Shown here: positions 3,007 through 40,093 of the stretch, one piece after another
How positions within the stretch are numbered: the stretch's first letter is position 1
How the letters are laid out: each line of letters starts with the position of its first letter
Assembly (NCBI RefSeq): GCF_900115365.1
Contig: NZ_FOWD01000034.1
Location: 1-42,437 of the forward strand
Reading direction: 5' to 3'
Source: Anaerocolumna aminovalerica
Lineage (GTDB): Bacteria > Bacillota > Clostridia > Lachnospirales > Lachnospiraceae
Length of the DNA stretch: 42,437 nucleotides
Position numbers and translations under genes: made by a program
The notes under the pieces: model-generated
The model's database searches: none
Told to the model about the DNA's origin: nothing
The model's input: only the letters and a program-made list of their open reading frames with translations

Positions 3007-3318
3007 ATGGAAAAAGTGATTAATCTTCTTTCCGAAATAGAAGAAAAAGCCGATGAAATCATGAAGCGCGCTAACGAAGAGAAAATGGAACTTCATAAGA
3101 AATTAGAAGAAGACATAAAGCAGTTAGATAATTCTATAGCTGCAGACAAAGCAGACAGAATACATGCTCTACAAGCGCAAATCAACAAAGAATTGGCTGA
3201 GGAACGACAAGCTTTAATCAATGATTGTAATAAACAGCTGGAACATATGGAATCCCAATATCAGCACAATCATGATGCTCTTGTTAATAAAATATTCTTA
3301 AGTTTAATACAGTCATAA
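3007..3318 (+). CDS. V-type ATPase subunit G/H, peripheral stalk coiled coil
   Basis: A 103-residue, highly charged, almost entirely helical protein rich in Glu, Lys, Gln and Ala with heptad-like spacing (EIEEKADEIMKRANEEKMELHKKL). It has no membrane segment. This is the form of the small stalk subunit (called G or H) that pairs with subunit E to make the peripheral stalk joining V1 to subunit I. It is the first gene of the ATPase operon, as in many clostridial and archaeal clusters. AGGAGG precedes the ATG at a good spacing. Sequence conservation in this family is low, so the call rests on composition, length and operon position. Confidence 0.85.
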   Translation: MEKVINLLSEIEEKADEIMKRANEEKMELHKKLEEDIKQLDNSIAADKADRIHALQAQINKELAEERQALINDCNKQLEHMESQYQHNHDALVNKIFLSLIQS

Positions 3319-3454
3319 AGGAGTTAAGTTGAAAAAATATGTTTTTCAACTGGTTGTGCTCCGGCACAAAGTTGCTGCCATATAAAGCCCTAAAGCGCCT
3401 AAATTGAGGCTACTTGTTTTGTAAGCGTGCCAAAGCACGCAGATGGGAGTTCTT
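3319..3454 (+). repeat. Modular hairpin leader, copy A (before V-ATPase subunit C)
   Basis: Starts directly after the stop codon of the upstream gene and ends at the ATG of subunit C. In order: AAGGAG (3318-3323); hairpin 1 with perfect 10-bp arms AGTTGAAAAA (3327-3336) and TTTTTCAACT (3342-3351); hairpin 2, TTGTGC (3354-3359) with GCACAA (3364-3369); a degraded GCGC-type module ending AAATTGAGGCTA (3401-3412); then a second module with 6-bp stem GCGTGC (3425-3430) and GCACGC (3435-3440), followed by AGATGGGAGTT, which is the ribosome site of subunit C. A possible 18-codon peptide (MKKYVFQLVVLRHKVAAI) starts at TTG 3329, five bases after AAGGAG, and ends at 3385. Related copies lie before three other genes in the window. 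Confidence 0.75.
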
Positions 3455-6860: not shown

Positions 6861-6962
6861 AGGGTAGGTTGAAAAACAATGTTTTTTCAACCGGAAAGTT
6901 TGAGCTGGCAAACAAATTATTTTCGTTATCCAAGGCGCCAAGGCGCCAGAATCGAGGTTATT
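6861..6962 (+). repeat. Modular hairpin leader, copy B (before V-ATPase subunit F)
   Basis: Begins immediately after the K stop codon with AAAGGG and ends at the subunit F ATG. Hairpin 1 has perfect 10-bp arms GGTTGAAAAA (6867-6876) and TTTTTCAACC (6883-6892). Hairpin 2 is GTTTG (6898-6902) with CAAAC (6909-6913). The GCGC module is GGCGCC (6934-6939) with GGCGCC (6942-6947), followed by GAATCGAGGTTA (6949-6960), whose GAGG is the ribosome site. A TTG-AAA-AAC frame from 6869 stays open for 39 codons and runs out of frame into subunit F, ending at 6988. Confidence 0.75.
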
Positions 6963-7289: not shown

Positions 7290-7856
7290 GTGACTTTAGA
7301 TGAGAAATTAGAATTATTCTCCAAAGCAGTTATTGATAGTGCAACAAGCCAAAACATTGAAATCGTTCACCAGTACCAAGAATCTCTTCAGCAATTATAT
7401 GACGAACATAAACAAAATGCCTTAAAAAAAACAGAAGCTGCTTATCTTGCAGAATCTGAAAATTTAATGCGTGAGAAAAACCGTACACTATCAAGTGAAG
7501 CTATAAATATTAAAAGAAAAATAAATGAAAAATCTTCTGAATTAGCTGATAAACTTTTTCAGGATGTAGCTTTAAAATTAGAAGAATATATGAAAACACC
7601 TGAGTATTTTGATTTATTAATTACTCAGATTTCCAGAGCAAAAGAATTTGCCAGAGAGGATGAAATTATAATCTATATAAATTCTTCCGATGCAGGAATG
7701 AAAAAGCTTCTAGAAACCAATACAGGGGTAAACCTTACCGTAAGTACCAGAGACTTTATAGGTGGAACCAGAGCGGTTATTCATTCTAAAAACATATTGA
7801 TTGATAATTCCTTCTCAACAAAACTTTCAGAAGCGAAAAATTCTTTTTCCTTCTAA
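7290..7856 (+). CDS. ntpE: V-type ATPase subunit E (peripheral stalk)
   Basis: Peripheral-stalk subunit: the N-terminal helix pairs with the G/H coiled coil and the C-terminal globular domain binds the top of subunit B. The protein has 188 residues. The first 100 are strongly helical and charged (ALKKTEAAYLAESENLMREKNR), and the rest is the mixed domain ending in VNLTVSTRDFIGGTRAVIHSKNILIDNSFSTKL, where the FIGGTRA...NILIDNSF pattern is the family signature. The start is a GTG at 7290 behind AGAGGAG; a nearby ATG at 7300 is in another frame. A 190-base structured leader separates it from subunit A. Confidence 0.92.
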   Translation: MTLDEKLELFSKAVIDSATSQNIEIVHQYQESLQQLYDEHKQNALKKTEAAYLAESENLMREKNRTLSSEAINIKRKINEKSSELADKLFQDVALKLEEYMKTPEYFDLLITQISRAKEFAREDEIIIYINSSDAGMKKLLETNTGVNLTVSTRDFIGGTRAVIHSKNILIDNSFSTKLSEAKNSFSF

Positions 7857-8046
7857 GAATCAATCAAAGCGGATATTCCCGTATGCCTTTAGACAAGTTT
7901 ATCCGCTTACGCTACTTGCTAAGTAAACCTCATTGCCACTACGTGGCATTTCAGCAGATTAAGTTCCTGCTGAAACAGGCAAGTACGCTTCCCTGATGAG
8001 GTTAATATAGCTAGAATAAAGCTAAGAAAGGGGAGTTTTCTCCATT
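7857..8046 (+). promoter_or_regulatory. Structured leader before V-ATPase subunit A, with a four-way junction
   Basis: A first stem pairs AAGCGGATA (7867-7875) with TATCCGCTT (7900-7908). Then a closed junction: P1 AACCTCAT (7926-7933) with ATGAGGTT (7996-8003); P2 TGCCAC (7934-7939) with GTGGCA (7943-7948); P3 TTTCAGCAG (7949-7957) with CTGCTGAAA (7967-7975); P4 CAGG-C-AAG (7976-7983) with CTT-C-CCTG (7988-7995) and a TACG loop. Helices abut with no unpaired bases. An ATG at 7883 opens 37 codons across all of it, ending in TGA at 7994-7996. The ribosome site GGGGAGTTTTC resembles that of the hairpin leaders, and GGAG can pair with CTCC at 8040-8043. Function is unknown. Confidence 0.65.
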
Positions 8047-12149: not shown

Positions 12150-12229
12150 GGAATAAATGAGTAAGTTGAAAAATAATTTTTTCAACATCTTGATTTAATA
12201 CGTGCTAACACACGCAGATAGGAGTTTTC
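12150..12229 (+). repeat. Modular hairpin leader, copy C (before the D,D-carboxypeptidase)
   Basis: Hairpin 1 has perfect 9-bp arms GTTGAAAAA (12165-12173) and TTTTTCAAC (12178-12186). It is followed directly by the GCGTG-type module: CGTG (12201-12204) with CACG (12211-12214), then CAGATAGGAGTTTTC up to the ATG. The last part matches copy A (CAGATGGGAGTTCTT). The TTG-AAA-AAT frame from 12166 gives only ten codons. Hairpin 2 and the GAATTGAGGTTA module are absent. This copy follows a promoter rather than another gene of an operon. Confidence 0.72.
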
Positions 12230-39983: not shown

Positions 39984-40093
39984 ATAAAGGATGGGAAAAT
40001 AGGTTGAAAAAACTTTTACAACCTACAATTTGTGGAATCCACAAAATATCCATCGTTATTAAAAGGCGCTAAAGCGCTGGAATTGAGGTTAGG
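39984..40093 (+). repeat. Modular hairpin leader, copy D (before fumarase alpha)
   Basis: Begins ATAAAGGATGGG, like the ATAAAGGAG that begins copy A. Hairpin 1 pairs TAGGTTG (40000-40006) with CAACCTA (40019-40025) and inner A/T pairs. Hairpin 2 is TTTGTGG (40029-40035) with CCACAAA (40039-40045). The GCGC module is GCGC-TAAA-GCGC (40066-40077), followed by GGAATTGAGGTTAGG up to the ATG; GAGG is the ribosome site. A TTG-AAA-AAA frame from 40004 gives 22 codons and stops at the TAA in the GCGC hairpin loop. AACCTACAATT (40020-40030) can also pair with AATTGAGGTT (40081-40090), hiding the ribosome site. Confidence 0.75.

Follow-up and report, generated by a model that had tools for sequence, protein, structure and literature searches.

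Hairpin leaders at start codons of Anaerocolumna aminovalerica are probably mobile repeats that carry their own Shine-Dalgarno sequence

Short hairpin-rich units appear to have inserted repeatedly in Lachnospiraceae, exactly between the ribosome-binding site and the start codon of genes, and a gene with such an inserted unit is probably still translatable thanks to the replacement ribosome-binding site. In the window, the whole 42,437-nucleotide stretch of Anaerocolumna aminovalerica DNA analyzed here, a sequence-only reading had singled out four leader intervals, all of which we find again, each stopping 2 to 3 nt short of an ATG (Table 1). We consider it highly likely that these leaders are mobile repeats akin to MIRUs, the mycobacterial interspersed repetitive units reportedly described by Supply et al. 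in 1997, which enter between the Shine-Dalgarno sequence (SD) and the start codon in the orientation of the gene and supply a new SD. The earlier suggestion of a dispersed element that inserts before starts and donates a ribosome site is supported by the many copies, by their gene-strand placement at a constant spacing to the start, and by the compensatory changes in their hairpins.

The genes downstream of the four leaders are those named in the sequence-only reading, and Pfam agrees with each of them (V-ATPase C/AC39, V-ATPase F, carboxypeptidase S11, and fumarase). The leaders had been taken for one family, which holds for their common architecture and 5′ hairpin, but they belong to two families, A and B, and one interval (3319-3454) is a stack, in which the 3′ part of a B unit comes after a decayed A unit. 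The TTGTG/CACAA hairpin that had been noticed in three copies marks the three A units, with the unit at 6867-6960 carrying it as GTTTG/CAAAC and the B unit having none.

Table 1. Leader units in the window. The A units at 3327-3412, 6867-6960, and 40002-40091 belonged to the training set of covariance model (CM) R2, and their bit scores are not independent; the extent of the B unit at 12164-12226 was set from B tandem arrays.
Feature	Coordinates	Strand	Downstream start	Match or remark
Older SD, GGAG + TTA, directly upstream of the stack	3320..3326	+		left in place
Family A unit, decayed: 5′ hairpin 3327-3351, TTGTG/CACAA hairpin, degenerate 3′ hairpin + SD	3327..3412	+		CM R2 60.3 bits
Family B unit, 3′ part: hairpin GCGTGC-CAAA-GCACGC, SD GGGAG	3413..3451	+	vatC ATG 3455	0 mismatches at 3425-3451
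Family A unit, complete	6867..6960	+	V-ATPase F ATG 6963	CM R2 78.1 bits
Family B unit: 5′ hairpin, ATCTTGATTTAAT, 3′ hairpin, SD GGAG	12164..12226	+	carboxypeptidase ATG 12230	3 mismatches at 12200-12226
Family A unit, complete	40002..40091	+	fumarase ATG 40094	CM R2 79 bits

Both families share a layout of a 5′ hairpin, a middle part, a GC-rich hairpin with a YAAA loop, and an SD whose distance from the start codon is fixed. Family A is about 93 nt long and is built from the modules GGTTGAAAAA..TTTTTCAACC, TTTGTG..CACAAA, GGCGC-TAAA-GCGCC, and GAATCGAGGTTA; 25 full copies align to the consensus GGTTGAAAAACAAnnTTTTTCAACC GGCAATTTGTGCTnGnGCACAAATTGCT nTCnTTATTAAAA GGCGCTAAAGCGCC AGAATCGAGGTTA, with ATG normally coming 2 nt later. 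For family B, tandem arrays together with single copies give a consensus of approximately GGTTGAAAAAAC..TTTTTTCAAC ATCCTGATTTGCAT GTGTGCTAAAGCACAC AGATGGGAGTT, usually followed by 2 to 5 nt and then ATG. We observe that the 3′ end is constant and that many copies are without the 5′ hairpin, a frequent truncation that simple insertion of units leaves unexplained.

The sequence-only reading had named many same-strand copies just before start codons as the supporting outcome of genome searches, and this outcome was obtained; relatives additionally show empty sites. With at most 3 mismatches allowed, the A 3′ module has 92 matches in the A. aminovalerica genome and 61 in that of a sister Anaerocolumna (G013), against 0 for the reversed pattern, and it has 0 matches in 96 other genomes searched across genus, family, and order. 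When the best 150 candidates per genome are scored with the family A covariance model R2, there are 108 matches in the A. aminovalerica genome and 76 in G013. On the same basis, R2 matches are found in 10 of the 15 genomes of the genus, with weaker ones in 8 of the 13 besides these two, and the 22 weaker loci that were fetched are subfamilies with the same layout and different hairpin sequences. Exact matches to the A pattern are also present in two Lachnoclostridium phytofermentans genomes. In viral contigs we found 0 exact matches to the A pattern, and phage-borne spread was dropped as a candidate on that ground. The B module, with 6 matches in the A. aminovalerica genome (reversed control, 0), occurs in 11 of the 15 genomes of the genus in up to 31 copies (22 in G009, 31 in G011) and in 8 of 394 Lachnospiraceae genomes of other genera (e.g., 24 copies in G158, 11 in G399, and 9 in G178; controls, 0). 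G005 has 0 matches for either family. Since the reversed-pattern controls are 0 for the A and B modules alike, chance is excluded as the origin of the repeats.

Position at gene starts was scored in a sample of 835,834 bases of the A. aminovalerica genome, comprising the window and 40 stretches picked around matches, so that density in it is not unbiased, and with start codons called by a simple script and no gene finder. The sample holds 76 A modules with at most 6 mismatches (reversed control, 1). An open reading frame (ORF) of 50 or more codons starts 1 to 4 nt after 66 of them, the gap being exactly 2 nt in 61 cases, compared with a baseline of 18% of random ATGs that open such an ORF. Six of the 10 remaining copies precede a further unit, and one has a 46-codon ORF at 2 nt. 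At L061 and L196, an ATG follows the unit at 2 nt on a 12- or 7-codon ORF that heads a larger frame (the frames beside L058, L061, and L196 we take, from their translation, to be FeoB-associated, topB, and lon), while L056 is an orphan A copy with no start codon after it, the only clear orphan among the 76. The same placement is seen in the other Anaerocolumna genomes, where all 22 fetched units have an ATG at 2 to 3 nt, which in 20 cases begins an ORF of 50 or more codons, and in family B (L216-L271), where an ORF of that length starts after 48 of 60 distinct copies and at least 9 of the other 12 run into a further unit. Native SD-ATG distances mostly spread over 4 to 9 nt, which indicates that the fixed distance belongs to the element. 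In the match-enriched sample, 423 SD-led ORFs reach at least 150 codons, and 61 of these carry a unit. An element gene shares its strand with the nearest upstream ORF in 46 of 58 cases, and a native gene does so in 260 of 336; with shares this similar, no special operon position is seen.

These figures weigh heavily against the idea that units insert anywhere and that selection retains only the copies that give a usable SD. It is true that insertions breaking the expression of important genes would be lost, but copies between convergent genes or ahead of an SD should persist, and a single clear orphan is seen. Random insertion also has to contend with units that keep to one distance where native spacing varies, with a preference for TA in the left flank (see below) that it does not explain, and with the finding that an ATG 2 nt on without an ORF of at least 50 codons follows only 4 of the 76 copies, whereas the sample contains 753 intergenic TANNATG sequences that are not called starts (some perhaps true starts missed by the script). 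We therefore regard random insertion as very improbable; by virtue of the same 753 sequences, TANNATG alone is hardly the target.

Left flanks were compared for 64 near-full A copies (65 distinct copies of at least about 60 bits, minus one at a locus start). An SD-like tetramer lies within 13 nt upstream in 39 of the 64 and is absent in 25; the control windows, which lie farther upstream, give counts of 4 and 8. Among the 44 copies without a recognized left-hand unit, 26 have the upstream tetramer, versus 3 and 7 in the controls, the split by left neighbor being rough, since several of these "native" flanks end, by eye, in a decayed unit. The same 44 copies are immediately preceded by A in 38 cases and by TA in 26, compared with 164 (A) and 47 (TA) of 362 native starts. 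With regard to MITEs, which have terminal inverted repeats and a target duplication, the unit ends GGTTG.. and ..GAGGT are by eye not inverted repeats, and TA is common at both junctions, which could be a 2-nt duplication. A longer target-site duplication that includes the SD was considered and dropped: L029 has GAGGATA on both sides, and most other full copies do not.

Orthologous sites are seen in both the empty and the filled state. At the vatC start, the A+B stack of the A. aminovalerica genome faces an empty site in G013, which reads ataaggaggtttcctATG (acagtcataaggaggtttcctATG); elsewhere in the genus, G008 carries a different subfamily and nine genomes look native by eye. The vatF site has no A unit, again by eye, in the 11 other Anaerocolumna genomes shown, with G003 having another SD hairpin, and L029 reads GAGGATA-[unit]-agATG versus GAGGATAcaATG in G013. 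Across ortholog pairs of the two genomes, sites are shared, empty on one side, or differently filled (A versus B, or B versus type D, a further leader type described below). A partner was found for 10 of 87 A. aminovalerica and 7 of 27 G013 elements among the loci compared, a comparison biased by the choice of G013 loci for carrying elements and with "empty" and "native" called by eye. Two B leaders precede the same genes in each of G011, G012, and G014, one of them with an SD-like stretch upstream (by eye), and such shared leaders can be old. Tandem arrays occur, as do stacks of different families. From these patterns, we infer that the copies moved as units.

Several other repeats and leaders came to light in the same loci. 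Type D, about GGAGATTTnTGC..GCACAAAGTCTCC AGACTTTGAAAGGAGCAGGTTATAAAT and then ATG, is found at L187, L191, L049 (minus strand), L098, and L137, and at L049 and L137 it sits behind a 5′ hairpin starting GGTTGAAA. The type C hairpin TCTGCAAGCAGATGCGGCATGCAATGGGAGCTA has five matches in the sample (L049, L053, L056, L177, and L193), three of them directly before an A unit; in the scan for leader types, 25 matches classed as "neither" are mostly antisense readings of palindromic arms. Between two V-ATPase genes of the window (7854-8009) lies a second dispersed repeat of about 140 to 155 bp, with 15 further matches in the A. aminovalerica genome and 13 in G013 at 77 to 87% identity; G013 has no such repeat at the corresponding position, the matches to its two flanks lying 2 bp apart there. 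L215, presumably a microcompartment-like locus, contains at 3206-3360 a 155-bp insertion in G011 that is exactly missing from G012 and G014 and whose 3′ half carries the inverted pair CTAGTACTACCTTG/CAAGGTAGTACTAG. L096 of G013 has, at about 1642-1836, a short tandem array around AAGCCCAAGCATGCCATACTAAG before a gene whose A. aminovalerica ortholog has a truncated A unit (L063). Finally, a B tandem array of G010 has a 6S RNA gene (Rfam RF00013; L242 1057-1235) roughly 0.1 kb upstream.

With respect to structure, the first covariance model, R1, held only 4 pairs, and R2 was for that reason built with the hairpins given by hand. In the 70-copy alignment (A2), 85.7% of cells are paired, versus 33 to 53% when slid, and both partners have changed in 25 of 27 base pairs, counts that lean towards structure, as the alignment was fitted to the structure model; 0 of 500 shuffles reach any of five structure measures. 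RNAalifold on an unfitted MAFFT alignment kept only 4 pairs, a loss probably due to variable arm lengths. The 3′ hairpin changes from C-G to U-A in 15 copies, and whole arms are swapped among subfamilies (GGTTG/CAACC, GTGTG/CACAC, and GAGTG/CACTC), with CTGC/GCAG in other genera.

A structure kept with compensatory changes and with its 3′ hairpin adjoining the SD would also suit the second proposal of the sequence-only reading, a shared post-transcriptional regulator, here a cis-regulatory leader (a riboswitch- or protein-bound 5′ UTR) governing a regulon after transcription, and the retention of B leaders at the same gene in G011, G012, and G014 (two sites) speaks for it as well. However, 20 genes drawn at random from the 61 downstream genes have many unrelated functions, several of them housekeeping-like; by our own reading of Pfam matches, they include metK, pheT, holA, accA, PFL, ilvD, maf, spoVAD, and two transporter parts. 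Sister species moreover swap A for no leader, A for B, or B for type D at the same gene, arrays and stacks of units exist, and Rfam covariance models gave no match on the units (window at the gathering score; 13 loci at E up to 1). Because the downstream genes are unrelated and the leaders are gained and lost between sister species, we disfavor the regulon and consider it unlikely.

Folding predicts an SD accessibility of 0.44 for units and 0.46 for native genes, i.e., no difference. The notion that units expose the SD better than native genes was dropped on these equal values, which leave a translational benefit of the unit unsupported. The simplest reading is a safe insertion, in which the unit rebuilds an SD at the proper distance and the gene is still made; translation would be driven by the unit's own SD, which would render the insertion nearly harmless.

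In the mechanism that we propose for such insertions, a short noncoding hairpin-rich mobile repeat would have the translation-initiation region of a gene as its insertion site, entering between the native SD and the start codon in gene orientation, frequently behind a TA and with 2 nt left to the ATG. The native SD would stay upstream while the unit's SD, 5 nt from the ATG, takes over, and further units could insert at the same place and give rise to tandem arrays and stacks of different families. The junction between adjacent units, GAGGTTA/GGTTGAAA, resembles a native ribosome-binding site and start, GGAGGTTA/NNATGAAA, which suggests integration by recombination between the two, be it by some recombinase or by homology. 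The hairpins may aid mobilization or the stability of the leader.

Known movers were weighed against this recombination. Hairpins near both ends and a strict orientation bring to mind nonautonomous IS200/IS605-type elements (hairpin ends, oriented, no long target duplication) mobilized by a Y1 transposase, and Y1 genes are present in both A-rich genomes (17 matches in A. aminovalerica and 1 in G013). The B carriers G009 (one contig, 99% complete) and G011, however, have 0 Y1_Tnp matches, and a short sequence target alone would not select start codons; we rate this origin as improbable. Many of the 17 A. aminovalerica Y1 matches (L282 and L284-L299) lie at contig ends, and a repeated IS200/IS605-type element probably breaks this assembly. 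Retro-elements, whose unit RNA is copied back by a reverse transcriptase, would account for the fixed 3′ ends and the 5′ truncation, in keeping with the constant 3′ end, the 5′ hairpin missing from many copies, and one RVT_1 match in the A. aminovalerica genome, but with 0 RVT_1 matches in G013 (81% complete), G009, and G011 we give this route still less credence. Y1 transposase and reverse transcriptase were both set aside as likely movers, as neither is found in G009 or G011, though both are in the A. aminovalerica genome, and the Y1_Tnp and RVT_1 searches of these four genomes did not point to a gene that mobilizes the units.

A true MIRU mechanism, in which the former start position opens a short ORF within the unit whose translation is coupled to that of the gene, would fit the observation that most near-full A units begin NN-TTG-AAA after the older SD (TTG in 43 of 64, AAA next in 51 of 64), as well as versions in G003 and G009/G011 that are readable as GTG-AAA. 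Of 27 NTG ORFs, 11 run on without an early stop, and six of these end 2 nt before the end of the unit or 3 nt after it, overlapping the start. Against this, 16 of the 27 ORFs stop more than 20 nt before the end of the unit, unit lengths fall in all three phases, and one unit in another genus is readable as GTG-TGA, and we find such coupling doubtful, if somewhat less so than the other alternatives considered here. A conserved leader peptide from the 5′ TTG was dropped, since the reading frame is not kept.

Insertion between SD and start codon may have a wider meaning, which we advance tentatively. The units could represent a class of mobile elements that integrate into the translation-initiation signal itself and that occur, as many diverged families, in several Lachnospiraceae genera: the unit-unit junction would mimic SD, spacer, and start codon, such that any gene start is a target and a working start is rebuilt, and a noticeable part of the ribosome-binding sites of the A. 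aminovalerica genome would have been replaced via some recombination system. If true, start-codon insertion arose in an unrelated phylum, in several families and by a different trick, SD donation. The units would then be a natural library of ribosome-binding sites swapped at the same genes between sister species and a possible tool to tune gene starts, and they would call for caution in start-codon annotation and 5′ UTR analysis in Lachnospiraceae.

To our knowledge, insertion at start codons is otherwise known only from MIRUs, which lie in the same orientation as the gene and form tandem arrays. Hairpin repeats of the REP/PATE type have end hairpins, insert in an oriented manner, and are moved by Y1 transposases, and we know of no SD donation by them; the Lachnospiraceae units share the end hairpins and oriented insertion and differ in that two B carriers are without a Y1 gene. 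BOX repeats are modular. According to the abstract of one study, the BOX, RUP, and SPRITE elements of Streptococcus pneumoniae are small interspersed repeats with extensive secondary structure that are likely to affect cotranscribed genes and that its authors judge parasitic (PMC3049150). That abstract states no start-codon targeting or SD donation (PMC3049150), whereas the Lachnospiraceae units are fixed in position and orientation. The earlier statement that no element with such a layout has been described holds for Rfam and for the open-licence PMC papers searched, none of which we recognized as describing these units, but it is qualified by the mycobacterial MIRUs, which one review presents as short, apparently mobile repeats whose insertion at start codons hardly affects the gene (PMC12548453). 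Like MIRUs, the Lachnospiraceae units are short dispersed or tandem repeats at start codons in gene orientation. MIRUs have an internal ORF coupled to the gene with −4 nt spacing, whereas frame and stops vary among the 27 A units and such a coupled internal ORF is not kept in them; in contrast to MIRUs, the Lachnospiraceae units enter between SD and start codon, form several families, and combine structured hairpins with an SD of their own at a fixed distance.
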